A stretch of 64,000 nucleotides of DNA from Actinomycetospora succinea (lineage in GTDB: Bacteria > Actinomycetota > Actinomycetes > Mycobacteriales > Pseudonocardiaceae): positions 601,736-665,735 of the forward strand of contig NZ_SNYO01000004.1 of assembly GCF_004363095.1 (NCBI RefSeq), given 5' to 3'. Shown here one piece after another: positions 37,136 through 52,132 of this stretch (within the stretch, counting starts at the first letter, position 1; every line of letters begins with the position of its first letter). The translations under genes and the position numbers were made by a program. The notes beneath the pieces were generated by a model. That model was not told the origin of the DNA and ran no database searches. It saw only the letters and a list, made by a program, of their open reading frames with translations.

Positions 37136-38250
37136 CAGAACGGCTGGGCGATCTGGGCGAAGGCCTGGCCCATCAACCCGGCGTGGTCCGCGCCGGGCGT
37201 GCCCGGGTGCGTCTCCCAGAAGCTGATCTGCGCCGAGGTCTCCACGACGTACCGGCACCGGTCGAACCGGCGCTTGCCGAACGTGCGCAGGCCGTCGTCG
37301 ACGCCCGCGCCGGCCCCGAGCTCCTCGCCGAGGGCGACCGCGTCCTCCAGGCACATCGCGGCGCCCGCGGCGAGGTGCGGGGTCGTGGCGTGCGCGGCGT
37401 CGCCCAGCACGAGGACGCGGTCGCGGTGCCACGGCTCGCCGACGAGGAGGTTCTCGAAGCTCGTGTAGTTGATCGGCGTCGTGGCCCTGACCTCCGCGCG
37501 CGCCGTCGCGGCGAACCCGCCGAACGGCGCGAGGCGCTCGCGCACCGCCGCCGGCGCGTCCGGGCCCGGGCGGAAGCTCGTGTCGATCGGGAAGAGCACG
37601 TACATGTACATGCTGTCCGGCCCGGTGGGCGTGAAGCCGATCGTGGTGTCCTCGCCGCCGACGATCTGGCACTCGGTGGTCAGCTCGGCGGGCCGCGACA
37701 GCACGACCCGGTAGATGCCCTGCCCCAGGAACCGGATCTCGACGTCGCCGTGGACGAGCCGGCGCACGGTGGAGCGCAGGCCGTCCGCGCCGACGACCAG
37801 GTCGTAGCGCGAGCGCTCACCGCCCGCGAGCGTCACGGTCGCCGATCCGCCGTGGTGCTCGATGCCGGTGACCTCGGCGCCGGTGCGCACCGTGACCCCG
37901 GCCCGCTGCGCGCGGGCGAGCAGGATGCGGTGCAGCTCGGGGCGCATCATCCCGACCATGCCGGGGTGGTCCGTCCCGACCGCCTTCGGCAGCGGGAAGC
38001 GCGTGATCTGGTGGCCCGCCGGGTCGAACAGCTCGAAGTCGTCCATGGCGTAGCCGTGGGCGAGGCAGTCCTCGTAGACCCCGAGCCGGTCCAGCGCCCG
38101 GAGGGCGGCCCCGACGAGGGTGATGCCGCTGCCGAGCGCGTGGATCTCCGACTCGCGCTCGACGAGCTCGACGTCGATGTCCCGGGAGGCGAGGGCGGTG
38201 GCGGCGGCGAGCCCACCGATCCCGCCCCCGACGACCAGTGCCCGTGTCAT
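37135..38250 (-). CDS. FAD-dependent aromatic monooxygenase (paralogue 1)
   Basis: A 371-residue class A flavoprotein monooxygenase of the UbiH/PHBH superfamily. It has the ADP-binding VVGGGIGGLAAATAL, the DG motif VVGADGLRSTVR and the FAD/ribityl motif VLVLGDAAHATTPHLAAG. It should hydroxylate an aromatic or N-heteroaromatic ring with NAD(P)H. It leads the operon with the SMP-30 and hydrolase genes. It is closely related along its whole length to the monooxygenase at 51011, with shared stretches such as FTPTG-DSMYMYVLFPI and TPGADHAGLM. An operator-like LysR box lies 81-97 bp upstream. Confidence 0.9.
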   Translation of the reverse strand: MTRALVVGGGIGGLAAATALASRDIDVELVERESEIHALGSGITLVGAALRALDRLGVYEDCLAHGYAMDDFELFDPAGHQITRFPLPKAVGTDHPGMVGMMRPELHRILLARAQRAGVTVRTGAEVTGIEHHGGSATVTLAGGERSRYDLVVGADGLRSTVRRLVHGDVEIRFLGQGIYRVVLSRPAELTTECQIVGGEDTTIGFTPTGPDSMYMYVLFPIDTSFRPGPDAPAAVRERLAPFGGFAATARAEVRATTPINYTSFENLLVGEPWHRDRVLVLGDAAHATTPHLAAGAAMCLEDAVALGEELGAGAGVDDGLRTFGKRRFDRCRYVVETSAQISFWETHPGTPGADHAGLMGQAFAQIAQPF

Positions 38251-38330
38251 GGCGCTCCTCCCTCGGGGCTGTGCCGACGACGCTAGGGGCGTTTCGTCGG
38301 GGGGAGATAGCGACGCGTGTCGATGCGAGC

Positions 38331-38347
38331 CATCGGCCCCATCGATG
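38331..38347. promoter_or_regulatory. LysR box 1 (CATCG-N7-CGATG) upstream of hydroxylase operon
   Basis: CATCGGCCCCATCGATG is a dyad with a T-N11-A core, 81-97 bp upstream of the FAD monooxygenase start. It shares all ten arm bases plus the AT before the second arm with the boxes at 39331 and 41600. Confidence 0.72.
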
Positions 38348-38355
38348 ACCGGCGT

Positions 38356-39279
38356 CTAGGGATCCATGGCCGCCGCGGCGCGCCGGACGCGGTCGCGCAG
38401 CCAGCGGTGCGCCGGGTCCGCGTCGGTGCGGGGGGACCAGAACATCGCCTCGGTCATCGGCGGGACGTCGAACGGCGGCTCGAGCAGCCGGATCGGCAGG
38501 TGGGACGCGAAGGCGACGGCGAGACGCTCGTGCAGCAACGCCATGAGGCGCGTGCCCGGCAGCATCAACGGCTGGATGACGAAACTCTGGGTGTGCACGT
38601 CGACGTGCCGGTCGATGCCGAGGCGACGGAGCCGGAGCTCGCTGATCGTCATCCCCGGGGCGCCGTCGTAGGCGAGGTAGGGGAGCGTGCGGAACTGGTC
38701 GGCGGTGATCTGCTCCCCGACGTCGGGGTGGTCGCGGTCGACGGCGACCACGAACCGCTCGGAGAACAGCGGCGCGGAGCGCACCTCGGCGCCCCGGGCC
38801 GCGAGCTCCGTCGGGAGGATGAGCAGGTCCAGCTCGGAGCGGACGAGACGCTCGACCGCGTCGGAGGTGGCCGGCCGGACGTTGAGGCGCAGCTTCGGCG
38901 CCTCCGCCTCGAGCGCGGCCAGGAGCGGGCGCAGCAGCACCAGGAGCACGTAGTCGCTGGCCATCAGCGCGAAGGTCCGCTGGTCGGTCCGCGGGTCGAA
39001 CTCGCGGGTCGCGCGCACCGTCGACTCGATTGTGTCGAGCGCGTCGCGGATGGGCCCGACGAGCTCGAGCGCCGTCGGGGTCGGGGTCAGCGACCGCCCC
39101 TCGCGCACCAGGAGCGGGTCGCCGAAGAACTTCCGCAGCCGCGCCAGCGACGCGCTCATCGCCGGCTGCCCCACCGACAGCCGCTCCGCCGCCCGCGTCA
39201 CGTTGCACTCGGTGATCAGGACGTCGAACGCGACGAGCAGGTTCAGGTCCAGCTGCGGCAGCAGCGAGTCGCGGTCCAT
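38356..39279 (-). CDS. LysR-type transcriptional regulator (NodD/aromatic type)
   Basis: A 307-residue LysR protein with an N-terminal winged HTH (LDLNLLVAFDVLITECNVTR, then SVGQPAMSASLARLRKFFGDPLLV) and a periplasmic-binding-type effector domain. The NodD/PcpR-like look of the HTH and its setting suggest an aromatic inducer. It lies between the hydroxylase operon and the dioxygenase-P450 operon. The same 17-bp dyad is found upstream of its own start, upstream of the hydroxylase operon and upstream of the dioxygenase operon, so it is the likely regulator of the island. Confidence 0.9.
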   Translation of the reverse strand: MDRDSLLPQLDLNLLVAFDVLITECNVTRAAERLSVGQPAMSASLARLRKFFGDPLLVREGRSLTPTPTALELVGPIRDALDTIESTVRATREFDPRTDQRTFALMASDYVLLVLLRPLLAALEAEAPKLRLNVRPATSDAVERLVRSELDLLILPTELAARGAEVRSAPLFSERFVVAVDRDHPDVGEQITADQFRTLPYLAYDGAPGMTISELRLRRLGIDRHVDVHTQSFVIQPLMLPGTRLMALLHERLAVAFASHLPIRLLEPPFDVPPMTEAMFWSPRTDADPAHRWLRDRVRRAAAAMDP

Positions 39280-39329
39280 CGTCGGCGCCCTCCTCCGAGG
39301 GACGTCACGCTACCGCGATCACGGCCCGG

Positions 39330-40535
39330 TCATCGACGTGATCGATGTCGGACAGTCAGCGGCAGGCTGTCGAACCCGCGGAGCATGCGGTTCGGCTTGC
39401 GGACGAACGGTCCGGCGAGGTGGACCCCCGCGGCGTTCGCGACGAGCTCCTCGAGCACGACCCTCCCGATCATCCGGGCCACCGGCGCGCCCAGGCAGAA
39501 GTGGACACCGCGCCCGAAGGCGAGGTGGTCGTTGGGGCTCCGATCGACGAGGAACCGGTCCGGGTCCGCGAACCGGCGCGGGTCCCGGTTGGCGCTGCCG
39601 AAGGCCGCCATCACCCGCGAGCCCGCGGGCAGGGTGACCCCGGCGACCGTGGTCTCGGCCGTGGTGACGCGGAAGAACCCCGGCTGGACCGGCGACTCGT
39701 ACCGGAGGGCCTCCTCGATCGCCGCCGGCACGAGGTCGGGGCGTTCGACCAGCAGGGCCCACTGGTCGGGGTGCGTCGCGAGGGCGTGCGCGAGGTTGCC
39801 CAGCATGTTCACCGTCGTGTCCATGGCCGCGACCAGGATCCCGCCGAGCAGGGAGACGACCTCGCCCTGACCGAGCTCGCCCCGCCCGCCGGCCTGCACG
39901 ATGCGGTCGGCCCACCCGTCGGCGACGTACTCGCCGTCCGCGGCGATCTGGGCGACGAAGCCGAACAGCCCGCCGGTGGCCTCCGCGAGGGCGGGCGTCT
40001 CGCCGCCGGCCGGGCAGCCCATCGAGTCGAAGATCGTCGACGCTCACCGGCAGTACTCCTGGCGGTGGCGGTCGGGGTAGCCCATCAGCTCGGCCATCAC
40101 CGTCGTCGGCACGGGCTGCGCGACCTGGTCGATCCAGTCGACCTGCCCCTCGGCCAGGGCGACCTCGAGCGCCCGGCCCACGAGCTCCCGCACGCGGGGC
40201 TCCAGCGCGCCGATGGCCTTCGGGGTGAAGTCCCGGGCGACGGCGCGGCGGACACGGGTGTGGTCGGGCGGGTCGGTGGAGAGGATGACGCCGCCCTCCT
40301 CCGGTGTGGCGACGGGTTCGAGACCCGCCCCCGTCGCGGACGAGAACGTCTCCCAGTCGCGCAGCACCGCCGCGACGTCGTCGTACCGCGAGATCAGCCA
40401 GACGCCGTAGCGGTCGAGGTGGGCGCACGGCGCCTCGTCGCGCAGGACGGCGTAGGCGGGGTAGGGGTCGTCGCGGTGCTCGGCGCCGAACGGGTCGAAC
40501 GCACTCGCCGCCGCGGGTCCCGAGATCGCGGTCAT
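39330..40535 (-). pseudogene. Cytochrome P450 interrupted by an in-frame TGA
   Basis: A full-length bacterial class I P450 (401 codons) except that codon 164 (40044-40046) is TGA, in the sequence YCR-stop-ASTIFDSMG. Trp (TGG) at this place fits the family, so this looks like a single-base nonsense change. The I-helix is AAMDTT (about 236-241), ExxR is EALR (275-278), and the heme ligand is C347 in FGRGVHFCLG. The frame is the same on both sides. The ATG at 40535 overlaps the dioxygenase stop (ATGA), so it is the second gene of that operon. A restart at the ATG at 40022 could give only the C-terminal 230 residues. It may be a sequence error rather than a real pseudogene. Confidence 0.8.
39331..39347. 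promoter_or_regulatory. LysR box 2 (CATCG-N7-CGATG) upstream of lysR
   Basis: CATCGACGTGATCGATG is a dyad with arms CATCGA and TCGATG and a T-N11-A core, 52-68 bp upstream of the lysR start. It overlaps the last codons of the P450 gene. Position and symmetry fit autoregulation. Confidence 0.75.
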
Positions 40536-41542
40536 CGCACGGCCCACGGGTTGGTGAGGTCCTCGTGCAGCTGCGGCGACACCCCGTCCTCGGTGCCCGC
40601 CATCCCGGCCGCCGTCGGGAAGGCGTCCATCATCGAGTCGGGCATGTGCCAGTTGCGGAAGAAGTCGTTCGACCCCTGCGAGGGCCGCCACGTCCGGGCG
40701 CGCCAATCGGGCACGTAATTGCGGTAACCGCCCGAGTTGAGCTCGACCCGCAGGCTACTCGGTTCCCGGAAGTAGAGGAAGTTCTGTTCCCCGATGCCGT
40801 GGACCGACGGCCCGTACTCGATGGGCGTCCCGTTCTCGATGAGGATGTCGGCCGCGCGGTTCAGGTCCTCGGGGTGGTCCGCCCAGAAGGCGATGTGGTG
40901 GACGCGCCCGGCCGTCGCGGACGTGTCGATGACGATCCCGAGATCGTGCGACTTCTCGTTGGTGGTCAGGACCGAGAAGACGGTGACGGGCGCGTCCTCG
41001 AGGTCGGTGAAGGCCATGACGCGGAACCCGAGGACGTCGGAGTACCACTGCGCGAAGCCGCGCACGTCCGAGGCCGCGATGGTCACGTGGTCGAGGAAGC
41101 GCGGCGCCGCGCCGTGGCTGCTGCGCCGCTCCGGGCGGTCCGGGTACGTGGACTCGTAGCCCGCCTCGGCGACGAACGGCGGGACGTCCCAGACCAGGCT
41201 CATCCGGTGCCCGAACGGGCCGACGAAGGTGAAGGTGCGGCCCTGGGCGGGCAGGTCGTCGCGCCACACGCCCTGGATGCCCGCGGCCTCCACGCGCCCG
41301 ACGAGCTCGTCGAGCGCGGCCTCGCTGTCCGCCCGCCACGTCATGTCCGCGAGCCCGGCGTCCGGGCCAGGGGCGACGACGACGCTGTGGCGGTAGTGGT
41401 CGCCCCAGCAGCGCAGGTACACCTTCCCGTCGGCGCGGTCGACGACCCGCAGGCCGAAGCGCTCCACGTAGAACGCGACCGACGACTCGACGTCCGGGGT
41501 CGTGATCTCGAGGGAGATCAGGTGGCTCAGCAGCCTCGTCAT
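40532..41542 (-). CDS. Two-domain extradiol dioxygenase (VOC family)
   Basis: A 336-residue type I extradiol dioxygenase of the catechol 2,3-dioxygenase/BphC group, with two vicinal-oxygen-chelate modules. The C-terminal module carries the iron ligands: H152 in FLDHVTI, H215 or H216 in RVHHIAFW, and E267 in LRVELNSG, with a conserved Tyr in NFLYFREP. It should cleave a catechol-like ring meta to the hydroxyls. The start MTRLLSHLISLEITTPD at 41542 is preferred over an upstream ATG at 41602, which lies in the dyad-rich promoter region. Its stop overlaps the P450 start. Substrate is not determined. Confidence 0.87.
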   Translation of the reverse strand: MTRLLSHLISLEITTPDVESSVAFYVERFGLRVVDRADGKVYLRCWGDHYRHSVVVAPGPDAGLADMTWRADSEAALDELVGRVEAAGIQGVWRDDLPAQGRTFTFVGPFGHRMSLVWDVPPFVAEAGYESTYPDRPERRSSHGAAPRFLDHVTIAASDVRGFAQWYSDVLGFRVMAFTDLEDAPVTVFSVLTTNEKSHDLGIVIDTSATAGRVHHIAFWADHPEDLNRAADILIENGTPIEYGPSVHGIGEQNFLYFREPSSLRVELNSGGYRNYVPDWRARTWRPSQGSNDFFRNWHMPDSMMDAFPTAAGMAGTEDGVSPQLHEDLTNPWAVR

Positions 41543-41587
41543 GCCGGAAACGCTATTTCGGCGCTCAGATCGCCGGAAACAATTGTT
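41543..41587. promoter_or_regulatory. Direct repeats and palindrome upstream of the dioxygenase
   Basis: GCCGGAAAC occurs at 41543-41551 and 41572-41580, 29 bp apart. The second copy runs into AACAATTGTT, a perfect 10-bp palindrome at 41578-41587. In this GC-rich region the AT-rich palindrome stands out and may belong to the promoter of the dioxygenase-P450 operon. Confidence 0.5.
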
Positions 41588-41599
41588 GTCGATTCCTGT

Positions 41600-41616
41600 C
41601 ATCGCGCGGATCGATG
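41600..41616. promoter_or_regulatory. LysR box 3 (CATCG-N7-CGATG) upstream of the dioxygenase
   Basis: CATCGCGCGGATCGATG, with the same arms and T-N11-A core as boxes 1 and 2, lies 58-74 bp upstream of the extradiol dioxygenase start. It is also 154-170 bp upstream of the divergent LigB-type gene, so it could serve both. Confidence 0.75.
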
Positions 41617-41769
41617 TGTTCGCGACGAGCGGGACCGCCGGGCGCGGTTTCGCGTCGTGAACAGGCCTCCGGCCGAGGGGTCGACGGCGAGAGAGGGCAG
41701 CGTCGATCGGAGTGCCGGTCGGCCCGGGTCGTAGGCTCGACGGCCCGCGTCACCGACGGAGGAGCAACG

Positions 41770-42639
41770 ATGGCGGCGCCCGACGACACGCTCATGCCGG
41801 CCGCGTTCCTCGGCCACGGCAACCCGATGAACGCGCTGGCGGACAACCGCTACACCGCCGCGTGGCACTCGCTCGGGACGTCGGTCCCGCGCCCCCGCGC
41901 GATCCTCGTGATCAGCGCGCACTGGTACATCAACGCGACGGCCGTCACCGTGATGCCGCGGCCGCGCACCATCCACGACTTCTACGGCTTCCCCCGCGAG
42001 CTGTTCGCCGTCGACTACCCGGCGCCGGGGCTGCCCGAGCTCGCCGACGAGGTCAGCGAGGTCGTGCACCCGACCTGGGTGGGGGCGGACGTCGACAGCT
42101 GGGGGATCGACCACGGGACCTGGTCGGTCCTGCTGCACGCGTTCCCGGACGCGTCGATCCCGGTGGTCCAGCTGTCGATCAACGCCGAGAAGCCCCTCGA
42201 CTACCACCTCGAGCTCGGCGCGCGGCTCGCTCCGCTGCGCCGGCGGGGCGTCCTGATCATCGGCAGCGGCAACGTCGTGCACAACCTCGGGGCGATGAGC
42301 TGGGAGCTCGCCGACGACGGCTACGACTGGGCCCGGCGCTTCAGCGACGTCTCGCGCGAGCGGATGCTCACCGCGCCCACGGAGTTCGCCGCGCTGGACG
42401 CCCACGCCGACTTCCGCACGGCCGTGCCGACCCCGGACCACTTCATCCCGGCCCTCTACTTCGCCGGGCTGGCCGGTGCGGAGGCGACCTCCGGGGTCGA
42501 CGTCCTCGTGGACGGCTACGCCTACGGGTCCCTGTCCATGACCGCCTACACGCTCGACGCGTCGTGCCCGGCGGCCCCGGACGGAGCCGGGGCCCCGCGG
42601 CCGCCCGCCGACCTGCCGCCCGACGCGTCGAACATCTGA
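41770..42639 (+). CDS. LigB/DODA-type class III extradiol dioxygenase
   Basis: A 289-residue protein of the 4,5-DOPA-extradiol-dioxygenase/YgiD family. The metal site residues are H15 in FLGHGNPMN, H50 in VISAHWY, and later His residues in GNVVHNLG and in TPDHFIPALYFAG. Plant and bacterial members open catechol rings, but many bacterial ones have unknown substrates. The ATG at 41770 follows GGAGCAAC. It is divergent from the other dioxygenase and shares its regulatory region, so it may act on the same or a related substrate. The C-terminal 25 residues are Pro/Ala-rich. Confidence 0.88.
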   Translation: MAAPDDTLMPAAFLGHGNPMNALADNRYTAAWHSLGTSVPRPRAILVISAHWYINATAVTVMPRPRTIHDFYGFPRELFAVDYPAPGLPELADEVSEVVHPTWVGADVDSWGIDHGTWSVLLHAFPDASIPVVQLSINAEKPLDYHLELGARLAPLRRRGVLIIGSGNVVHNLGAMSWELADDGYDWARRFSDVSRERMLTAPTEFAALDAHADFRTAVPTPDHFIPALYFAGLAGAEATSGVDVLVDGYAYGSLSMTAYTLDASCPAAPDGAGAPRPPADLPPDASNI

Positions 42640-42754
42640 CGCCCACACCTGCTCACGGCGTCACTTTCGGGTCAACTCCACACCACCCGCGATCACTCTC
42701 GTGAAGAGTCCGGGCCACCAGCGATCACCGGCTCGACACCACGAGGCGCCCACC

Positions 42755-43507
42755 ATGACCGCCACCAGCACCCGACCGACGTCGTCACCCCCGTGGACCG
42801 TCACGGCCTCGCGGCTCTGGCACCTGCTGATCGCCGCCGTCGTCGGCGCCGCCCTGGTCATCCAGGTGGGGCTCATCGTTACCGGCGGCCCCGACCCCAA
42901 CAGCGGCGAGGCCGTCGGCTCGCTCGGGATCGGCACCCGGGTGATCCAGACGCTGAGCTACTTCACCATCCAGAGCAACATCCTCGTGCTGATCGTCGCG
43001 GTCTCCCTGGTGATCGATCCCGTGCGGGACGGACGGGTCTGGCGCGTCCTGCGGCTCGACGCCCTGCTGGGCATCACCATCACCGGCCTGGTCTACGACC
43101 TGGTCCTCGTCGACTACGTCCACCCCAGCGGATGGCAGCTCGTCGCCACCATCGGCTTCCACTACATCTCGCCCTGGGCGACCCTGCTCGGCTGGCTGCT
43201 CTTCGGGCCCCGCCCTCGCATCGACCGCAGCACCGTGGCCTGGGCGTTCGTGTGGCCGCTCGCCTGGATCGCCTACACGTTCGTCCGCGGCGCGCTGGTC
43301 GGCTGGTATCCCTACCCGTTCCTGGACGTCGACCGGATCGGGTACGCGAGGTCGATCGTCAGCACGGCGGTCGTCTTCGCGGTGGCCCTCGTCCTGGTGG
43401 CGATCTTCGCGGGGATCGACCGGTTCCGCACCGTCGGCGCGACACCCGCTCCGAGCCCGCGGAGTGTGCGCGCCGTCGACGATCGGGAGGAAGCGCCCCA
43501 GGCCTGA
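42755..43507 (+). CDS. Pr6Pr family membrane protein
   Basis: A 250-residue polytopic membrane protein with about six segments. It resembles the Pr6Pr/FAR-17a-like family: a long loop GPDPNSGEAVGSLGIGTRVIQTLSYFT, then TIQSNILVLIVAVSLV and a conserved SPWATLLGWLLFGPRP. Function unknown. I chose the ATG at 42755 (MTATSTRP); the longer form from 42701 adds unlikely sequence. The gene's last 14 codons and stop lie in a 51-bp segment found again, at about 90% identity, at 44581. Confidence 0.83.
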   Translation: MTATSTRPTSSPPWTVTASRLWHLLIAAVVGAALVIQVGLIVTGGPDPNSGEAVGSLGIGTRVIQTLSYFTIQSNILVLIVAVSLVIDPVRDGRVWRVLRLDALLGITITGLVYDLVLVDYVHPSGWQLVATIGFHYISPWATLLGWLLFGPRPRIDRSTVAWAFVWPLAWIAYTFVRGALVGWYPYPFLDVDRIGYARSIVSTAVVFAVALVLVAIFAGIDRFRTVGATPAPSPRSVRAVDDREEAPQA

Positions 43508-43514
43508 CCCCGGC
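43464..43514 (+). repeat. 51-bp direct repeat, copy 1
   Basis: This segment covers the last codons and stop of the Pr6Pr gene and recurs at 44581-44631 with five mismatches, in the same orientation. The two copies flank the methyltransferase gene. Confidence 0.8.
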
Positions 43515-43554
43515 GGTGGACGGGTGCTCCCGGGCGCGCGCGGTCGGGGTGCCG

Positions 43555-44361
43555 CTACTGGGGTCGGCGTGCGGACACCTGGTGCATGCGGGCCTGGAAG
43601 AACACGGTGTCGGGACGCTGCGCGCCGGCGGCGACCGCGGCCCGGATGGTGTCCAGTCGGTCGGGTGTCGCCGTGCCGGCCGAGGCGACGGCGTCCCGCA
43701 TGTTGTCGAGCAGCTCGGCCAGGAACATCTTCTGCGTCGCGGTGGTCATCGGGTTCTCGACGGTCTCCTCGTGGACGTCGACCAGCCCGGCGGCGGTGAG
43801 GTGGGCGGCGAGACGGGGGCCGATGGTCGGATCGCCGCCGTGGAAGCGGACCGTTGCGGCGTAGACGTCGGCGAGATCGTCCAGCGCCGGCACGGGCGGC
43901 TCGGAGCGCAGGGTCGGGGTGAAGATGTCCTCGACCGCGACGACCCCGCCCGGGCGCACCGCCGAGGCCATCGCCCGGACCACGGCCATCGGGTCGACCA
44001 GGTGACTCAGCACCAGCCGGGCGAACGCGAGGTCGGCACCGGTGTCGGGGAGGCCGTCGCGTCCGGCGTCGGCGTGGAGGAAGGACGCCGGGACGCCGGC
44101 GTCGTCCGCCGCTCGACGGGCGATCTCCAGGGCGCCGTCGTCGAGGTCGACACCGGTCACCCGTCCCGTCGTCCCGACGGCGCGGGCCATCGCGATCGTG
44201 GTCTGGCCGTCACCGCAGCCGACGTCGAGGCAGGAGTCGCCCCCGCGCAGTCCCGCTCGCTCGAGGAAGCGGAGGGTCGAGGACGCCATGACCGTCGCCT
44301 GACGGGCGAGCCGGTCGGCGTCGGTCGCTCCGCCGGCGATGGTGTACGTCGCTCGCTCCAC
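43555..44361 (-). CDS. SAM-dependent methyltransferase, class I
   Basis: A 268-residue methyltransferase with the SAM-binding motif LDVGCGDGQTT, an acidic TGVDLDDGALE and ARLVLSHLVDP. It resembles the UbiE/Coq5-like methyltransferases acting on small molecules; the substrate is unknown. The start is fixed by a perfect Shine-Dalgarno, AGGAGG, 5 bp before the GTG at 44361, so the upstream ATG at 44415 is not used. It runs against its neighbours and lies between the two 51-bp direct repeats, which suggests a later insertion between the Pr6Pr and peptidase genes. Confidence 0.87.
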   Translation of the reverse strand: MERATYTIAGGATDADRLARQATVMASSTLRFLERAGLRGGDSCLDVGCGDGQTTIAMARAVGTTGRVTGVDLDDGALEIARRAADDAGVPASFLHADAGRDGLPDTGADLAFARLVLSHLVDPMAVVRAMASAVRPGGVVAVEDIFTPTLRSEPPVPALDDLADVYAATVRFHGGDPTIGPRLAAHLTAAGLVDVHEETVENPMTTATQKMFLAELLDNMRDAVASAGTATPDRLDTIRAAVAAGAQRPDTVFFQARMHQVSARRPQ

Positions 44362-44471
44362 CCGATCCTCCTGATCAGCGCGGGTACCACGGTGCCGTTC
44401 GATCGGCGCGGTCACCTCGAGGTGCGGTCGGGCACGCGGCCGCGGGTCGGCACCACGCCGACGACGACCAC

Positions 44472-44490
44472 CACGACAGCCTCTGTCGTG
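44472..44490. promoter_or_regulatory. Inverted repeat in the methyltransferase/peptidase gap
   Basis: CACGACAG and CTGTCGTG are perfect 8-bp arms around CCT. It lies 111 bp upstream of the minus-strand methyltransferase and 164 bp upstream of the peptidase gene. It may be an operator or a hairpin. Apart from this and the repeat at 44581, the 292-bp gap holds nothing I can name. Confidence 0.5.
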
Positions 44491-44580
44491 TCCGACGGGG
44501 AGTCGGGCGGACCGGTGCCGATCGTGCCGACCCCGACGTCGCGAGAGAAGCGTCAGGCGGCACCGCCCTCACACGACGGG

Positions 44581-44631
44581 GTGTGCGCGCCGTAGACGAT
44601 CGGGAGGAAGCACACCAGGCTCGACCCCGGC
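44581..44631 (+). repeat. 51-bp direct repeat, copy 2 (remnant of a Pr6Pr gene tail)
   Basis: It matches 43464-43514 at 46 of 51 positions. Read in the frame of copy 1 it encodes VRAVDDREEAHQA, almost the Pr6Pr C terminus (VRAVDDREEAPQA), so it looks like a leftover gene end. It is now in the leader of the M28 peptidase gene. Confidence 0.8.
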
Positions 44632-44653
44632 AACGGTTGACCCGGGAGGCGCG

Positions 44654-45745
44654 ATGGGGTGGGCGCGAGCGGTGGTCGCCGTGGTGCTGATCGCGCCGTT
44701 GACGCTCAGCGCCTGCACGACGGGGCGCGCGCCGACGCCGCCGCGCGAGGAGTCCGCGCCCGTGGGGGACCGGACGCTGGCCGAGAACCTCGCCGCGACG
44801 GCGACCGGGTCCGCGGCCTTCGTCCACCTGCAGGCCCTCCAGGACATCGCCGCCCGCAACGGCGGCACGCGGGCTACGGGGACGCCCGGCTACGACCAGA
44901 GCGTCGACTACGTCGCCGACACCCTGCGCCGCGCGGGCTTCGACGTGCAGACGCCGACGGTCGCGCTCGGGGGCGACGGCGACGACGAAGACCAGGGCGG
45001 GGACGCGGCGACGTCGGGCACCACGCGGAACGTCGTCGCGCAGACCCGGAGCGGTCGGACCGACGAGGTGGTGCTCAGCGGCGTGCACCTCGACAGCGTC
45101 CCCGAGGGGCCGGGCATCGACGACGACGGCAGCGGTGTGGCCGCGCAGCTCGAGATCGCGGCGCGGCTCGGCGCCGACGCCCCGGTGACGAACGCGGTGC
45201 GCTTCGTCTTCTTCGGCGCGGAGGAGGAGGGCCTGGTGGGCTCGCAGGCCTACGTCCGCGGGCTCTCGGAGGACGCGCAGCGGGACATCGCCCTCATGCT
45301 CAACTCCGACGTGATTGCCGCGCCGAACGGCGGCTACTTCGTCTACGACGGCGACGGCTCCGACGGCGCGAACACCGACGCCGCGGCACCCGGCTCGACG
45401 GCGATCGAGCGAGTGCTCACCGATCGGCTCGTGTCCCGGGGCGTCCCGGCGCGCGGGACCCCGTTCGTCGACGACTCCGACTACGGCCCCTTCGTCGCGG
45501 CCCGCATCGCCACCGGGGGCGTCTTCTCCGGGGACGCGGGCACGAAGACCGACGAGCAGGCCCGCCTGTGGGGCGGCCGGGCCGGCGCCCCGTTCGACCC
45601 CTGCTACCACCGGGCGTGCGACGACATCGGCAACATCGACCGCCCTCTGTTCGATCGCATGGTCGACACCGTGGCGTACGGGATCGGGGCGTTCGCGGTG
45701 GACCTCAACGGCGTCCCGCCCCGGAGCGAACGCGCGGCGCAGTGA
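44654..45745 (+). CDS. M28 family zinc metallopeptidase, lipoprotein
   Basis: A 363-residue aminopeptidase-like protein with a lipoprotein signal: hydrophobic 6-18, then the lipobox LSAC with C21 as lipidation site, so it acts outside the membrane. Zinc ligands of the M28 fold are visible: H145 in GVHLDSV, D157 in IDDDGSG, E190/E191 in GAEEEGLVGS, an Asp in LNSDVI and a His in CYHRACDD, whose two Cys may form a disulfide. An acidic insert (107-122, GDGDDEDQGGD) may bind calcium. It follows GGGAGGCGCG just before the ATG. It probably trims peptides for nutrition. Confidence 0.9.
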   Translation: MGWARAVVAVVLIAPLTLSACTTGRAPTPPREESAPVGDRTLAENLAATATGSAAFVHLQALQDIAARNGGTRATGTPGYDQSVDYVADTLRRAGFDVQTPTVALGGDGDDEDQGGDAATSGTTRNVVAQTRSGRTDEVVLSGVHLDSVPEGPGIDDDGSGVAAQLEIAARLGADAPVTNAVRFVFFGAEEEGLVGSQAYVRGLSEDAQRDIALMLNSDVIAAPNGGYFVYDGDGSDGANTDAAAPGSTAIERVLTDRLVSRGVPARGTPFVDDSDYGPFVAARIATGGVFSGDAGTKTDEQARLWGGRAGAPFDPCYHRACDDIGNIDRPLFDRMVDTVAYGIGAFAVDLNGVPPRSERAAQ

Positions 45746-45752
45746 CGGGGAC

Positions 45753-47270
45753 TCAGGTGGCCGTCGGGACCAGGTAGGAGCCGAGGAAGGCGTCGAGGGC
45801 GGCGAGCCCGGCCGCGTCGGCGGGGGTGGCGCGGTAGCCGACGTGGCCGTCCGGCCGCACCAGCAGCGCGCTCGACGAGGTCGGGGAGTCGCCCGGACGG
45901 CGGACGACCTCGACGAGCCCGTGCCAGCGGCTGCCCAGGCGCTCGACGCCGGCGGCGTCCGCGGAGTCGTCGACGAGGAGGTGGTGCGCCGTGCCGGTCA
46001 GGCTCGTGCGGCCGGGGAAGCGCTCGCCGGGGGCGGGCGGAGCGGGCGGCGCCGCGCCGACGCCGAGGTGCTCGCCGACGACGGGGCTGCCGGCGTAGGT
46101 GACGTCGAGCAGGCACCGCGCCCGGATCATCGCCCCCCGTTGGGCGGGGGTCGCCGGGCTCGGCCGGACGCCCGTGCGTGCGGCCTCCACCGCCGCCCGG
46201 GCCGTCGCGTCGATGCGGCGGGAGACGTCGAGCACCTGGTGGTCGGCGGCGAGGCGCTCGACCTCGAAGCTCTCCAGCAGGGCGGGCCGCGCGTGCCCGC
46301 GTGCCGTGAGCGCCAGCTTCCACGCGAGTCCCTGGGCGTCGTGGAGACCGGCGTTCAGACCCTCGCCGCCGAACGGGCTCGACAGGTGCCCGGCGTCGCC
46401 GAGCAGGAACCGACGGCCCTCGGCCAGCCGGGGCACCACGCGCTGGTGCATTTGGAACGACGTCGCCCAGCCGACGTCCTGCACCGTGACGGCGGCGGGG
46501 ATGCGCCGACCGATCCCGGCCGCGACGACCTCGGCCGGGTCCGCGTCGGCCAGCCGTGCCGTCTCGTCGTCGTCGAGGTCGCCGACGAAGGTGAGCCAGC
46601 GCTCGTGCGGCAGCGGCACGAGCAGGACGAAGCCCCCGGGAGTGGCGACCAGGTTCGAGGCGTCGCGCGGCAGGTCGCACCGGACGCCGACGTCGGCCGC
46701 CAGGACCGTTCCCGGGTAGGTGTAGCCCTCCAGGGTCTCCGCCATCGACTTCCGCATCACGCTGTGGGCACCGCCGGCGCCGACGACCCAGCCCGCCTCG
46801 ACCGTCGTCGCGCTCCCGTCGGCCTGCTCCAGCCGGATCCGCACACCGTCGTCGCGCTCCTCCACCGACGAGACGGCGACGCCGCGCTCGACCGCACCGC
46901 CGAGCTGCGCGAGCCGCTCGGTGAGGATCTGCTCCGTGCGCCACTGGGGCAGGCTGCACTGGAACGTCCAGGGGCAGTCGATGTCGGCGTACGACATCTC
47001 GCCGACCGGCTTCAGGTCGGCGTCGACCACCCGGGCGGACGTGACGTGGACCGACGACGCCAGGACCTCGTCGACCATCCCGGCGCCGGCGAGGAGCTCG
47101 AGCGTCCCCGGCTGGACCGCGGTGGCGCGGGTCTGGTGATGGGGTTCGGGCAGGCGGTCCAGGAGCCGCACTGCCACACCGCGGCGCGCCAGCTCGACCG
47201 CGGCGAACAGGCCCGACGGGCCGGCGCCGATGATCACCACCTCGGCGTCGGAAGTGCGCGACGTCTGCAT
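45753..47270 (-). CDS. FAD-dependent aromatic hydroxylase (PheA/TfdB/Rox-like)
   Basis: A class A flavin monooxygenase of about 505 residues: ADP-binding VVIIGAGPSGLFAAVELARR, VVGAGGAHSVMRK, LLGDAGHLSSPFGGEGLNAG, and a C-terminal thioredoxin-like domain. That architecture is shared by phenol hydroxylases, polyketide hydroxylases and rifampicin monooxygenases. I start at 47270 (MQTSRTSDAEVVIIGAGP); an ATG at 47306 would add 12 residues. The presence of arr in the same window makes a rifamycin hydroxylase worth testing, but no RAE-like site was seen here. It is more simply a phenol-type or polyketide-type hydroxylase. Confidence 0.85.
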   Translation of the reverse strand: MQTSRTSDAEVVIIGAGPSGLFAAVELARRGVAVRLLDRLPEPHHQTRATAVQPGTLELLAGAGMVDEVLASSVHVTSARVVDADLKPVGEMSYADIDCPWTFQCSLPQWRTEQILTERLAQLGGAVERGVAVSSVEERDDGVRIRLEQADGSATTVEAGWVVGAGGAHSVMRKSMAETLEGYTYPGTVLAADVGVRCDLPRDASNLVATPGGFVLLVPLPHERWLTFVGDLDDDETARLADADPAEVVAAGIGRRIPAAVTVQDVGWATSFQMHQRVVPRLAEGRRFLLGDAGHLSSPFGGEGLNAGLHDAQGLAWKLALTARGHARPALLESFEVERLAADHQVLDVSRRIDATARAAVEAARTGVRPSPATPAQRGAMIRARCLLDVTYAGSPVVGEHLGVGAAPPAPPAPGERFPGRTSLTGTAHHLLVDDSADAAGVERLGSRWHGLVEVVRRPGDSPTSSSALLVRPDGHVGYRATPADAAGLAALDAFLGSYLVPTAT

Positions 47271-47537
47271 GTGTCGACCCCCGATTCGTCCCAGGTGGGT
47301 CGTCATTGTCGCCCGAGAATGCGCTGATCGGGTACGCCACAGTTCATCGACACCTTGTGCATGGTCATCGTCACCGTGTGCAGCAGCCGAAATCGCGGAT
47401 CGTCCAGTTCGAGCGAATCGACGGATGCGCGTGCGCGGACTCCTACCGATTTTTGACTACGTCTCTCCCGTGCGTTCTCCGGAGGTGCCACCTTCGGATT
47501 CCCATTCCGGCGCCGGCCTGATCCGCGCGGCGGATTC

Positions 47538-47936
47538 CTACCGGTGCTTCGGCGTCTCCACCGCGACCATCGTCGACTTGACGACCGCGACGGCGAGGTC
47601 GCCGGGTTTGAGGTCCAGGTCCTCGACGGCCTCGGTGCTCATCAGGGACACGATGCGCGCCGACCCGCACTGCAGTTCCACCTGGGACATCACCTTGTCG
47701 GACTCGATCGACGTCACCAGCCCGACGAACCGGTTCCGGGCGGAGCGCCCCACGTCCGACGGGTCGTTGACGGGGTTGGCGCGCTGCTTCGCGAGCTTCG
47801 CCAGGTCCGCGCCGTCGATGACCCGTCGCCCGGAACCGTCCTGGGCGACGATGCCCTCGGCGTCGACGAGGCGGCGCATGGTGTCGTCGCTGACCCCGAG
47901 CAGGTTCGCGGCCTCGGCCATCCGGTACGTCGGCAC
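47538..47936 (-). CDS. HTH-TOBE domain protein (molybdate-binding type)
   Basis: A 132-residue protein with a short N-terminal excisionase/MerR-like HTH (YRMAEAANLLGVSDDTMRRL, residues 4-23) and a single C-terminal TOBE/Mop domain (about 66-128, RNRFVGLVTSIESDKVMSQVEL and SLMSTEAVEDLDLKPGDLAVAVVKSTMVAVE). Such small proteins bind molybdate or tungstate and may regulate or store it. No modABC genes are in the window. The 267-bp gap downstream contains only a small ATCCGC-GCG-GCGGAT dyad at 47521-47535, a possible terminator. Confidence 0.88.
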   Translation of the reverse strand: MPTYRMAEAANLLGVSDDTMRRLVDAEGIVAQDGSGRRVIDGADLAKLAKQRANPVNDPSDVGRSARNRFVGLVTSIESDKVMSQVELQCGSARIVSLMSTEAVEDLDLKPGDLAVAVVKSTMVAVETPKHR

Positions 47937-48012
47937 GCGTGGAGGCTAGCGCCGGCTGCGGCATCATCGGACACCTCCGTACCGTCCGCCGCCCGAGCGC
48001 CAGGAGATCCGC

Positions 48013-48642
48013 ATGGCCGACATCGACACCGGCTCCAACCCTTTCCTGCGACGCTCGTACGAGCTCGCCGGCGCCGAGGACGCGGCGGTGCTGTACGACG
48101 AGTGGGCGGAGACCTACGACGCCGACATCGTCGAGTCGATGGGCTACGTGGGTCCCGCGGTGGCCGCGGCACGGCTCGCCGAGCTGGCCCCGTCCGGGGT
48201 CGTGCTCGACGCGGGCGCCGGCACCGGGCTGGTCGGCGTCGAACTGGCCGCGCGCGGCAGCTACACCGTGGACGGGGTCGACGCCTCCCCGGTGATGCTC
48301 GAGAAGGCGATGGCCACCGGGTGCTACCGCCGGGTCGAGGTCGCCGACCTGACGGTCCGCCTGCCGATCGACGACGCCGCGTACGACGCGGTCACCTGCG
48401 TGGGCACGCTCACCGAGGGGCACGTCGGCCCGGAGGCGCTCGCGGAGTTCGTGCGGGTGACGCGCTCCGGTGGGCACGTGGTCGCGACCATCCTCGACCC
48501 GATCTGGGAGCCGAAGGGCTACCAGGCCGCCGTCGACGCCCTCGTCGAGGACGGGCAGGTCGCCCTCCGCGAGGCCGACGAGCACCCGTACCGGACCCTG
48601 CAGGACGTCACCTGCCGGCTGGTCGTGCTCGACGTCCGCTGA
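48013..48642 (+). CDS. SAM-dependent methyltransferase, class I
   Basis: A 209-residue methyltransferase of the small WBSCR27/TPMT-like type. It starts MADIDTGSNPFLRRSYELAG, has LYDEWAETYDADI, the SAM motif LDAGAGTGLVG and the acidic VDGVDASPVML. The ATG at 48013 is preceded by AGGAGAT. The substrate is unknown. It is divergent from the TOBE protein and convergent with the LysR gene, from which it is separated by 5 bp. Confidence 0.87.
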   Translation: MADIDTGSNPFLRRSYELAGAEDAAVLYDEWAETYDADIVESMGYVGPAVAAARLAELAPSGVVLDAGAGTGLVGVELAARGSYTVDGVDASPVMLEKAMATGCYRRVEVADLTVRLPIDDAAYDAVTCVGTLTEGHVGPEALAEFVRVTRSGGHVVATILDPIWEPKGYQAAVDALVEDGQVALREADEHPYRTLQDVTCRLVVLDVR

Positions 48643-48647
48643 CGCCG

Positions 48648-49562
48648 CTACCCGGTGCCCGCGGCGATCGACGCGGCGACGTCCGTGATCGACGTCAGCG
48701 CGTGCCCGATGACGGGCTGCGCGGCGGCGCCCGCCCGGGTCACGGCCACGATGCGACGCACGGGGGCCGCTGGTCCACCCAGGCGCAGGCGCACCACGTC
48801 GGTGCCGGGGTGCACCGGGGCCAGCCGGGGGAGCATGAAGATCCCGAAGCCGTGGGCGACGAGCGCCGTGCCGGTCTCCCACTCGTCGGCGTAGTGGGCG
48901 ACGGTCGGGGTGAAGCCGGCCGCCTGGCACGCGGCGAGGGTGAGGCGGTGGTAGGCGCTCTCGGGGCGGCAGGTGATCCACAGCTCGGACGCGGCGTCGC
49001 GCAGCGTCACCTCGGACCGGGCGGTGAGGGGGTGCCCGACCGGGACGGCGAGGTCGATCGGGTCGTCGAGCACGGCGTGCTGCTCGAAGCGCTTGTCGGT
49101 CTCGGGCGGGACGCGGTCGTCGACCACGAGCAGCGCGAGGTCGCAGTCACCGGCCAGCAACAGGTCGATGCCGCGTGCCGGTTCGGCGTCCATCACCTGG
49201 ATCGCCAGGTCGGGGAACCGTTCGCGCAACGCGGCGGCCGTCGGGACGAGGAGCCGCGACGCCGCGGTGGAGAACCCGCACAGGCCGATCCGGCCCGGTG
49301 AGTCCTCCGCGCCGGCGAGCTCCGCGCGGGCGACCTCGGCGCGGGCGTGCAGCGCCTCGGCGTGGCGCAGCAGGACGTGCCCGGCCGCCGTGGGCTCCAT
49401 GCGACGCCCGACCTGGCGCATCAGCGCCACCCCGAGATCGTCGGAGAGCCCGCGCAGCTGCTGGGACACCGCGGACGAGGTGAAGTGCAACGCCTTGGCC
49501 GCCGCCGTCACCGACCCGTGGTGGGCCACGAGCTGGAGCGTCCGCAGCCGCGGGTCGATCAT
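48648..49562 (-). CDS. LysR-type transcriptional regulator
   Basis: A 304-residue LysR protein: N-terminal HTH (LRTLQLVAHHGSVTAAAKAL, HFTSSAVSQQLRGLSDDLGV) and a C-terminal effector domain. This subfamily, with TSSAVSQQL, often regulates a divergent MFS transporter, which is what lies across the gap here. A dyad GTAGC-GAT-GCTAC overlaps its start codon region. It is not the same subgroup as the regulator at 38356. Confidence 0.9.
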   Translation of the reverse strand: MIDPRLRTLQLVAHHGSVTAAAKALHFTSSAVSQQLRGLSDDLGVALMRQVGRRMEPTAAGHVLLRHAEALHARAEVARAELAGAEDSPGRIGLCGFSTAASRLLVPTAAALRERFPDLAIQVMDAEPARGIDLLLAGDCDLALLVVDDRVPPETDKRFEQHAVLDDPIDLAVPVGHPLTARSEVTLRDAASELWITCRPESAYHRLTLAACQAAGFTPTVAHYADEWETGTALVAHGFGIFMLPRLAPVHPGTDVVRLRLGGPAAPVRRIVAVTRAGAAAQPVIGHALTSITDVAASIAAGTG

Positions 49563-49577
49563 GTAGCGATGCTACGT
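49561..49577. promoter_or_regulatory. Dyad at the lysR/MFS intergenic region
   Basis: GTAGC (49563-49567), GAT, GCTAC (49571-49575) form a perfect inverted repeat directly next to the lysR start codon, 60 bp from the divergent transporter. It is a candidate LysR binding site. Confidence 0.5.
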
Positions 49578-49634
49578 GCTCGATGAAGAAGCGTGCGCTG
49601 GTGCTGAATGGTCCCTCCGCGCATGGTCCACTCC

Positions 49635-50869
49635 ATGAGCGTTTCCGCGTCCTCGTCGGTGACGGCACGAGCGCCGGTCGGTCCGTCGCGGACCGCGCGG
49701 GGGTGGGCGCTCGCGCTGCTCGCCCTGGCGGCCGCCGGCGCCGGGATCCCGAGCCCCCTCTACCCCGCCTACCAGGCGCAGCTCGGCTTCAGCGACCTGA
49801 CGCTGACCGCCGTCTACGCGATCTACCCCCTGATCAGCGTGCCCGCGGTCTTCCTGCTGGGCCCTCTCGGGGACCGGTTCTCCCCGCGCCGGGTCATGCG
49901 TTGCGGGGTGGTCATCGCCGCCGCGGGCTCCCTCGCGCTCGCCCTCGCGACGAGCACCGGCTGGCTGGTCCTCGGCCGTGTCGCCTACGGCATCGCGCTC
50001 GCCGTGATCACCGGCGCCGGCGTCGCGGTGGCGACCAGCGGCGCGGAGAAGGTTCGTGCGGGCCGGGTGTCGGCCGTGGTGTTCATCCTCGGCACGGGTG
50101 CGGGGCCCGTCCTCGGGGGCGCGCTCACCCGGTACGGGCCGACTCCCGGACTCCTGCCGTTCGGCGTGGACCTGGTGCTGCTCGGGGTCGTGTTCGTCGG
50201 GCTCGGCAGCGTGCGGGACCCCGAGTCAGGGCCGTCGACGGAGGCCGGGGCCGACCCCGGTGGCGCGCCGGCCCCCACCGCACGGCGGGCCCTCGTCGTC
50301 GCCGCCGTGAACGGTCTCCTCGGCTGGGCGGTGGTCGGTCTCTTCCTCGGGCTGATCTCCTCGGTCGCCGAGCGTTTTCCTCGGCATCGGCGACCCGCTC
50401 GTGGCCGGAGGCCTCGCCGGCGCACTCCTGGTGTGGTCGACGCTGACGGTGCCGGCGGTCGGTCGGCTGGGAGCCCGTCGTGCGCAGCTCGTGGGCCTGG
50501 TCGCCCTGGCGGTGTCGCTCGTGGTCCTCGCGCTCGGCGTGGGCTCGCTCGTCGCGATCGTGACGGCCTGCGTCGTCGCGGGCCTCGCCAACGGCCTGCT
50601 CTACGGCGGGGCGACCACCATCGTCAGCACGACGACCCCACCGCACCGGGCCAGCCGCACCGCCGCTGCCGTCTACTCCGCCTTCTACCTCGGCGCCGGA
50701 CTCCCGGCCCTGCTCGTCGGCCTGCTCACGGCCGCGCTTCCCCTTGACGCGGCGCTGTCGACCATCGCCGTCGCGACGCTCGCCCTCACCGTGCTCATGA
50801 CGGTTGTCTCGGCCCTCGGCCCTCGGTCCATCGACCACGGCGATGGTTCGCATCGATTCGGTTCGCTAA
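49635..50869 (+). pseudogene. MFS transporter (DHA1-like), frameshifted
   Basis: The first 248 or so codons from the ATG at 49635 encode membrane helices and the motif GPLGDRFSPRRVM. The frame breaks at a run of four T (50375-50378). With one T less, the protein continues ERFLGIGDPLVAGGLAGALL and through five more helices to about 50820 in the +1 frame. In that frame there is no stop near the expected end (it stays open to 52320), so a second lesion or stop loss is likely. The first TAA in another frame, at 50867, is used here as a nominal end. Unbroken, it would be a drug-type 12-helix transporter controlled by the divergent LysR. Sequence error is possible. Confidence 0.62.
50829..50845. 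promoter_or_regulatory. LysR box 4 (CATCG-N7-CGATG) upstream of the second FAD hydroxylase
   Basis: CATCGACCACGGCGATG has the same ten arm bases and T-N11-A core as the three boxes of the 38-42 kb island. It lies 166-182 bp upstream of the paralogous monooxygenase at 51011, at the end of the broken transporter gene. Confidence 0.62.
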
Positions 50870-50892
50870 CCGGCTGCGGGCAGCTGCGGTTA
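50867..50892. promoter_or_regulatory. Nested inverted repeat upstream of the second FAD hydroxylase
   Basis: TAACCG (50867-50872) and CGGTTA (50887-50892) enclose GCTGC-GG-GCAGC. It is 119-144 bp upstream of the ATG at 51011. It could be an operator or a terminator for the broken transporter gene. Confidence 0.45.
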
Positions 50893-51010
50893 ACGTCGCG
50901 GCCACAGCGAAGCGCACCATCGGCGGACCGTTCTCCGTGTCGGCCGGAGCACTTCCGTCCTCGAATCCGCGCGCCGTCCGCTGTCCACGACTCCCCGAAG
51001 GAGCACCGGC

Positions 51011-52132
51011 ATGACCAGGGCGCTGATCGTCGGCGGTGGGATCAGCGGACTCGCGACCGCGATCGCCCTGGCCGGACGCGGTGTCGAGGTCGAGCTGGTG
51101 GATCGGGACTCGCGCATCCACGCGCTCGGCAGTGGCATCGGCCTGATCAGTCCGGCCTTGCGGGCGCTGGACCGGCTCGGCCTGTACGAGCTCTGTGCCG
51201 GGAGCGGCTACGTCATGGACGACTTCGAGCTGTACGACCCCGAAGGCCGACAGCTCACCCGGTTCCCGCTGCCCCGCGCGGTCGGCGCCGATCTCCCGGG
51301 GATGATGGGCATGATGCGCCCCGAGCTGCACCGCATCCTCCTCGACCGCGCCACAGCGCTCGGCGTCGACGTCCGCACCGGGACCTCGATCGCGTCGATC
51401 GAGCACGCCACGAGTTCCGCGACGGTCACCTTCGACGGTGCCCGCGAGCCCGCGACGTTCGATCTGGTGGTGGGCGCCGACGGTCTCCGGTCGACGGTGC
51501 GAGGACTCGTCGTCGGCGACGTCGAGATGCGCTTCCTGGGACAGGGCATCTTCCGCGTCGTCCTACCCCGGCCCGCCGAGCTCACCACGAAATGCCAGAT
51601 CGTCGGTGGCGAGGAGATCACCATCGGTTTCACCCCGACCGGGGCCGACTCGATGTACATGTACGTCCTGTTCCCGATCGAGGCGTCGTTCCGGCCGGCG
51701 GCCGCGGACATGCCCGAGCTGGTCCGGAAGCGGATCGAGCCCTTCGGGGGCTTCGCGGCCCAGGTCCGGGACCGGATCGGCGACACGACGCCCATCAACT
51801 ACACGCGCTTCGAGAACCTGGTCGTGCCCCGCCCGTGGTACCGCGGCCGGGTCGTGGTGCTCGGGGACGCAGCCCACGCGACGACGCCGCACCTCGCCGC
51901 CGGCGCCGCGATGTGCCTCGAGGACGTCGTCGCGCTGGGCGAGGAACTGGACGCCGCCGGGGACCTCGACGCCGGCCTGGACCAGTTCACCGAGCGGAGG
52001 TTCGACCGCGCCCGGTACGTCGTCGAGACCTCGGCGCAGATCAGCCACTGGGAGACGCACCCGGACACGCCCGGCGCCGACCACGCCGGGCTGATGAGCG
52101 AGGCCTTCGCGCGGCTCGCCCAGCCCTTCTGA
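51011..52132 (+). CDS. FAD-dependent aromatic monooxygenase (paralogue 2)
   Basis: A 373-residue class A flavin monooxygenase, clearly a paralogue of the one at 37135: same start pattern MTRALIVGGGISGLATA, VVGADGLRSTVR, SMYMYVLFPIE, VVLGDAAHATTPHLAAGAAM and the tail HPDTPGADHAGLM-x-EAF. By eye about 70% of residues match. It should hydroxylate the same kind of aromatic or heteroaromatic ring. It stands alone here, without the lactonase and hydrolase genes, but has a LysR-type box like those of the island. The ATG follows GAAGGAGCACC. Confidence 0.9.
   Translation: MTRALIVGGGISGLATAIALAGRGVEVELVDRDSRIHALGSGIGLISPALRALDRLGLYELCAGSGYVMDDFELYDPEGRQLTRFPLPRAVGADLPGMMGMMRPELHRILLDRATALGVDVRTGTSIASIEHATSSATVTFDGAREPATFDLVVGADGLRSTVRGLVVGDVEMRFLGQGIFRVVLPRPAELTTKCQIVGGEEITIGFTPTGADSMYMYVLFPIEASFRPAAADMPELVRKRIEPFGGFAAQVRDRIGDTTPINYTRFENLVVPRPWYRGRVVVLGDAAHATTPHLAAGAAMCLEDVVALGEELDAAGDLDAGLDQFTERRFDRARYVVETSAQISHWETHPDTPGADHAGLMSEAFARLAQPF

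Follow-up and report, generated by a model that had tools for sequence, protein, structure and literature searches.

A predicted LysR regulon joining two loci of Actinomycetospora succinea, with an operator spaced like the nod box

Our analysis concerned a 64,000-nucleotide (nt) stretch of the genome of the soil actinomycete Actinomycetospora succinea (contig NZ_SNYO01000004.1, positions 601,736 to 665,735; here referred to as the window), in which a 17-bp inverted repeat, CATCG-N7-CGATG, recurs at two loci. An earlier note on this DNA had placed this dyad in front of four transcription units, namely a flavin adenine dinucleotide (FAD) hydroxylase operon (FADa), a gene for a LysR-type regulator (lysR), an operon for an extradiol dioxygenase and a cytochrome P450, and a paralogous FAD hydroxylase gene (FADb), and had inferred that all of them are governed by the LysR protein encoded at 38356, in a regulon linking the two loci. 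Does a single regulator indeed connect these units? Our data argue that it very probably does, in that the dyads would be the primary sites of this LysR protein, which would govern three enzyme units and itself. The claim gains support because the three enzyme copies share a third half-site and a hexamer at a fixed distance and because a matrix built without the window ranks these same three places first; moreover, the dyad or the longer element co-occurs with LysR relatives.

Four dyads and a longer element at three of them

The dyads and the features that accompany them are as follows (window coordinates):

38331..38347, minus strand: FADa element, primary dyad; lies 81 bp upstream of the start of FADa
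38320..38324, minus strand: third half-site ATCGA of the FADa element, 6 nt past the dyad
38280..38285, minus strand: −10-like TAGCGT of the putative FADa promoter, element base 63
39331..39347, minus strand: candidate autoregulatory dyad, 52 bp before lysR and overlapping the P450 gene end
39307..39312, minus strand: −10-like TAGCGT of lysR, base 36 counted from the lysR dyad
41600..41616, minus strand: extradiol dioxygenase element, primary dyad; lies 58 bp upstream of the gene start (41542)
41589..41593, minus strand: third half-site ATCGA of the dioxygenase element
41550..41555, minus strand: −10-like TAGCGT of the dioxygenase element, element base 62
50829..50845, plus strand: FADb element, primary dyad; lies 166 bp upstream of the gene
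50852..50856, plus strand: third half-site ATCGA of the FADb element
50891..50896, plus strand: −10-like TAACGT of the putative FADb promoter, element base 63

The four dyads are the only exact matches in the window, at just the positions reported earlier, and they carry the T-N11-A core (all copies) and the AT before the second arm (first three copies) as had been described. Their chance level had been put at well under one per 64 kb, and 100 dinucleotide shuffles indeed gave a mean of 0.09 and a maximum of 1, against the 4 observed. All copies lie upstream of their units, as claimed, but two of them also overlap reading frames: the lysR dyad extends over the end of the P450 gene (39330), where it overlaps the last codons and the stop, and the FADb dyad falls inside an apparent major facilitator superfamily (MFS) frame that is itself broken.

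Read toward the gene, the dyads of FADa, the dioxygenase and FADb are each followed by six bases and then by ATCGA in the same orientation as the first half-site (3/3). The element at the three enzyme promoters is ATC-N9-GAT-N7-ATC, followed by a TAnnnT hexamer from base 62-63. The lysR dyad has no third half-site at the fixed spacing and is followed by TAGCGT from base 36. The window holds 27 TAnnnT hexamers on both strands (0.0002 per position), and TAnnnT stands at base 62-63 in 8/8 enzyme-type elements from five genomes. The earlier description of the dyad was correct for arms, spacing and core but did not include the third half-site or the −10-like hexamer, which stands at a fixed distance.

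If TAnnnT represents the −10 sequence, the dyad would be centred at about −66 at the three enzyme promoters, which is the usual position of the primary site of LysR activators, and at about −39 at lysR, where it would cover the −35 region. This geometry would fit textbook LysR activation and autorepression, respectively. According to one account (PMC4834489), LysR operators comprise a T-N11-A primary site near −65, a secondary or activation site, and autorepression, and a T-N11-A dyad upstream of both the targets and the regulator, as expected of a LysR-type operator, is present here. As a refinement of the earlier picture, two kinds of site can apparently be told apart: three elements of the activation type and a single short dyad for autoregulation.

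In the proposed mechanism, a LysR dimer would occupy the dyad (ATC-N9-GAT, about −66) at the promoters of FADa, the dioxygenase and FADb, and a second dimer the next half-site or half-sites, around −51 to −37. An inducer, probably aromatic, would shift the resulting tetramer so that RNA polymerase is contacted or recruited at the TAnCGT −10 sequence of FADa, the dioxygenase-P450 unit and FADb. At lysR, the lone dyad would overlap the −35 region and cause repression, keeping the regulator low. This scheme of binding, start sites, activation, repression and induction is deduced from sequences, spacings, chance levels and co-occurrence. As a separate observation, the dioxygenase message is predicted to start on or beside the ATG (41540-41555) and may be leaderless.

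The 6.47-Mb genome contains the exact dyad at nine places, four in the window and five elsewhere, with about nine expected from the shuffle rate, and with one mismatch allowed the window holds nine copies against 4.2 expected, a number reached in 7 of 100 shuffles. Both counts would suit the view that the four copies are a chance cluster of a CATCG/CGATG-rich oligomer in a G+C-rich genome. However, four copies stand within 12.5 kb, all upstream of units and three with an extra half-site and a hexamer at fixed spacing, and other genomes have the element at matching positions next to the regulator, so that a chance cluster is exceedingly improbable. The dyad alone is a weak motif; since the genome holds only nine exact copies, four of them within 12.5 kb are not background and not chance.

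The genome scan for extra copies that the earlier note had proposed found the remaining ones at chance level. Three of the five outside dyads lie in coding frames (GMP synthase, LuxR-type regulator and MOSC protein) and two are intergenic, near glycosyltransferase/Tle1-like and acetyltransferase/TetR genes, these neighbours being partly classified. We rejected all five as members of the regulon, as the third half-site and a −10-like hexamer at 62-64 do not occur together in any of them: the GMP synthase dyad (C12) has ATCG at the third place and no hexamer, and the dyad at C11:86508, which faces an acetyltransferase-domain gene, has TAGCCT at 64 and no third half-site.

The element beside LysR relatives in other genomes

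Of 390 family genomes searched for LysR relatives, 14 (A. succinea included) have one at E ≤ 1e-72. The closest are those of Actinomycetospora termitidis (G118, 82%), G198 and Amycolatopsis tucumanensis (G162), both at 65%, and G305 (64%). The element recurs beside the LysR relatives in all four of these genomes and in several others at 45-51%. In G118, the FAD hydroxylase and the dioxygenase are each preceded by an element, and the lysR-FADa block is inverted relative to dioxygenase-P450, each unit having kept its own element. In G198, G162 and G305, the element lies directly after lysR, ahead of the next operon. All five non-window elements have TAnnnT at base 63 (5/5). When a matrix made from bases 1-42 of these five was run over both strands of the window, the window elements ranked 1-3 with 43.0, 35.6 (FADb) and 34.7 bits, and the next place scored 9.4 bits, a gap of about 25 bits. 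The arms, whose conservation in related genomes the earlier note had proposed to check, do recur there.

The 28-base pattern CATCG-N7-YGATG-N6-ATCGA was found at 20 places in 16 of the 390 genomes, including three in A. succinea, all of them in the window, and, at lysR loci elsewhere, two in G118 and one each in G198 and G162. Among the 13 places away from a close lysR relative, one, in G067, has TAnnnT at base 63. This element (L126, position 7165, minus strand; TAACCT at 63) lies between solute-binding-protein and HpaB-type hydroxylase genes, and no close relative of the window LysR was found in the 15 kb fetched. A related-locus search with the LysR protein as query returned no loci, and one with the FAD hydroxylase alignment returned two, in G118 and G162. 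A three-part ATCG pattern with two mismatches gave at least 540 forward and at least 483 reverse matches in the A. succinea genome (25 and 19 with a reversed-pattern control) and was not used.

A sequence-only model of eight elements and 70 columns was run on 15 genomes, with the best 150 of 2,409-5,148 candidates scored per genome, a setting in which weak sites may be missed. The eight training places obtained E ≤ 6e-9, and in A. succinea the next match was partial (E 0.005), with no fourth enzyme-type element among the best 150 of 3,391 candidates. Ten genomes were not used for training; among the matches listed for them, the top one coincided with the lysR relative or lay no more than 2.6 kb from it in G200, G327, G046 and G079, and a match near it was second in G075 and in the top three in G060. 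TAnnnT stands at base 62-63 in 7/7 held-out elements (two from G327), a count that is only partly independent, as the model includes the hexamer columns and one of the G327 elements, G327b, was matched only to column 48. Some half-sites are altered in the held-out elements, namely GAT in the near-identical copies of G046 and G079 and the third ATC in G327b. In G327 (L113), whose LysR relative is 49% identical, the elements at 5101 and 7627, both on the minus strand, stand before genes for a P450 and for a molybdopterin-dehydrogenase FAD-domain protein, and the G075 element comes directly after lysR, ahead of a zinc-dehydrogenase-like gene.

Outside the family, we examined nine of 180 matching plasmid records. 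The closest plasmid relative of the LysR, from Streptomyces chartreusis, is 73% identical over 274 residues. The best-scoring place in its 24.8 kb follows lysR immediately and precedes a VOC gene, and it combines ATC-N9-GAT with TAGCAT at base 62.

Upstream of lysR itself, a dyad with at most one mismatch is present in 11 of the 14 relatives at E ≤ 1e-72, against 2 of 22 more distant relatives, the latter being a subset of many more distant matches; random 245-bp stretches of the fetched loci reach one mismatch in 6.8% of cases, a figure raised by the motif loci themselves. The dyad of G284 has two mismatches. The hexamer at base 36 was seen in 4 of 11 readings (10 genomes), those of A. succinea (G000), G118, G198 and G162, which all belong to the group at 65-100% identity. 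When mapped on a quick tree with 39 rows (36 relatives plus S. chartreusis, Rhodococcus USK13 and NodD1), the dyad label required 8 changes for 13 rows versus 11.2 in shuffles, 6 of 500 of which were as low. The clade of the window LysR comprises six rows, five with the dyad plus the Streptomyces row (Shimodaira-Hasegawa-like approximate likelihood ratio test, 100). The dyad is clustered on the tree yet not limited to one clade.

Several observations weigh against the proposed regulon. The one-mismatch dyad is unremarkable in the window, and upstream of lysR the dyad is missing from G086 and G034 (three mismatches each); the lysR hexamer is at base 38 in G357, and the other six readings have none there. 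The 28-base pattern occurs at 13 of its 20 places away from a close lysR relative, once in G305, and among the matches listed, G284, G357, G189 and G067 have no element at the lysR relative. The G305 element before a FAD gene is degenerate, with three mismatches to the 15 fixed bases, and so is the S. chartreusis element, which has altered arms and no third half-site, there being no dyad before lysR either. Moreover, the FADb site (50829) has no orthologue for comparison, as the matches at E ≤ 1e-90 in 18 genus genomes are FADb itself, FADa and one G118 gene in FADa's place; its assignment would rest on the match to the full element.

The FADb copy might instead belong to another regulator, for example the second LysR encoded at 48648-49562, in which case the regulon would comprise three units only. 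The second gene lies closer, at 1.3 kb, and is divergent to the MFS gene that precedes FADb, and the FADb dyad, without AT before the arm, is the least similar of the four. Nevertheless, the site has the full element with the third half-site and the hexamer at 63, and its 35.6 bits come from a matrix whose sites adjoin the counterparts of the first LysR in other genomes. As FADa and FADb are 73% identical, a common inducer and regulator would also be natural, and we consider control by another regulator quite unlikely. It is likewise unlikely that the FADb element is an unused, passive leftover of the duplication that gave rise to FADa and FADb. Both promoters have the element while much of the sequence between element and gene differs, and the broken MFS frame suggests that the locus may be decaying; however, the retention of the dyad, third half-site and −10 spacing next to diverged spacer letters would be a mark of selection. 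Finally, the dyad could be the site of a different factor at the same promoters, such as a TetR- or GntR-type repressor, since many regulator families use inverted repeats of this size. The T-N11-A core, the third half-site, the −66/−39 geometry and the co-occurrence with LysR relatives point to LysR instead and make such a factor very unlikely. We retain control of all four units by the LysR protein encoded at 38356-39279 as the preferred reading.

Genes at the two loci

The genes in question are listed below:

37135..38250, minus strand: FADa, a FAD hydroxylase of the NCBIfam PRK06847 type that heads its unit
38356..39279, minus strand: lysR, LysR-type regulator of 307 amino acids, proposed binder of all four sites
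39330..40535, minus strand: frame for the cytochrome P450 of the dioxygenase unit, containing a single in-frame stop
40532..41542, minus strand: extradiol dioxygenase, resembling catechol 2,3-dioxygenase but scoring below the cut-off of that family; overlaps the P450 start
51011..52132, plus strand: FADb, paralogous FAD hydroxylase, 73% identical to FADa

The lysR product matches Pfam HTH_1 (56.6 bits) and LysR_substrate (69.3 bits), both above the cut-off, which places it among the LysR-type regulators. The closest solved structures (1uth, 2uyf and 5ae5) are of a LysR-type regulator that we take to be DntR. Downstream of FADa, its unit contains genes for an SMP-30-like protein and an alpha/beta hydrolase. 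The stop in the P450 frame, at 40044-40046 on the minus strand, is absent from the G118 orthologue and may be a real nonsense change, with the step possibly lost, or a sequence error. A LigB/DODA-type extradiol dioxygenase gene (41770-42639, plus strand) is divergent from the dioxygenase unit, and we saw no element that faces it. Upstream of FADb, the frame of the MFS transporter (49608-50850, plus strand) is broken near 50.39 kb, and the continuing frame has no stop of its own before FADb.

The flavin hydroxylases, P450, extradiol dioxygenase, SMP-30-like protein and alpha/beta hydrolase together suggest that a hydroxylated aromatic compound is degraded via ring cleavage. The regulon, the promoter positions and the mode of action of the regulator of this apparent aromatic degradation are predicted from sequence alone.

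Comparison with Rhodococcus npc, the nod box and other LysR systems

The same operator model also picks out a locus of Rhodococcus opacus 1CP on plasmid pR1CP1, where a LysR gene, whose product is 38% identical to the window LysR, lies beside npcA (4-nitrophenol monooxygenase). This locus shares with the window the ATC-N9-GAT-N7-ATC element with TAnnnT at 62/63, of which it has two perfect copies, one facing the flavin reductase/npcA side and one a ferredoxin gene; unlike the window, it encodes other enzymes. The LysR relative of Rhodococcus sp. JS3073 is also accompanied by two perfect elements, with TAnnnT at 62 and 63.

L161:1453 (minus strand) and L161:2503 (plus strand), with the same places in L166: elements flanking the Rhodococcus npc lysR

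Among the papers listed on npcA and LysR, no title or abstract opening describes the operator of this locus. Over the nine plasmid loci together, about 1.4 one-mismatch matches would be expected by chance. Rhodococcus sp. USK13 (43%) has one such match, without a hexamer, and the Rhizobium sp. 11515TR locus has three, one with a hexamer at base 61. The plasmid LysR loci of Acidovorax, Novosphingobium, Polymorphobacter and Roseomonas contain no three-part element at up to one mismatch. The element is absent from 4/5 proteobacterial plasmid loci, whose LysR relatives are 38-40% identical, and this counts against a universal grammar.

Like typical LysR operators, the window sites include a T-N11-A dyad, what would be a primary and a secondary site before the putative −10 sequence, and a candidate site of the regulator over its own promoter. 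Unlike typical LysR systems, they do not form one divergent pair but are four separate sites at two loci, with a separate short site for lysR. The best NCBIfam match to the window LysR, BsrA of Pseudomonas aeruginosa, reaches 186 bits against a cut-off of 480 and falls short of membership. BsrA is described as having a T-N11-A box, a diffuse motif and 765 bound regions (PMC8407307). The titles and abstract openings listed on nod-box-like operators, actinobacterial T-N11-A motifs and Actinomycetospora LysR proteins (12 of 944 papers for the last) did not describe the operator, most subscription papers being out of reach, and no literature was found on A. tucumanensis and LysR.

The nod-box palindrome has been described as ATC-N9-GAT (PMC5596368), and T-N11-A is traced to the NodD work of Goethals and others (PMC5002191). 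The box before nodA on a plasmid of Sinorhizobium meliloti RCAM1750 (L125) reads CATC-N9-GATG, six bases and ATC, so that bases 1-4, 14-17 and 24-26 are the same as in the window element. The half-sites of the window element are spaced as in this box: ATC-N9-GAT and, after 7 nt, another ATC. The two differ at the inner arm bases 5 and 13 and in the second half, and the S. meliloti box has no TAnnnT at 62-63 but TATTAG from base 60. Over its length, the window LysR shares 33% identity with S. meliloti NodD1. Compared with the 47-bp NodD-bound box before nod genes, the second half, the regulator and the targets all differ; the window element is built like a nod box and is not a nod box.

It is well supported that the regulon is of a known LysR type, and the interesting part is an operator spacing in actinobacteria that is common to the nod box. 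We tentatively suggest, as a possibility short of an even chance, that the nod box is a local version of an older grammar, ATC-N9-GAT-N7-ATC with a −10 sequence about 60-63 bases from its start, in a LysR branch spanning actinobacterial catabolic regulators (Actinomycetospora, Amycolatopsis, Rhodococcus npc and, in part, Streptomyces) and rhizobial NodD. If this is true, flavonoid-sensing control of nodulation would be a re-use of an aromatic-catabolism switch, operator included. The strict spacing allows a direct test of whether a common operator grammar is read by NodD and by the catabolic LysR proteins of actinobacteria.

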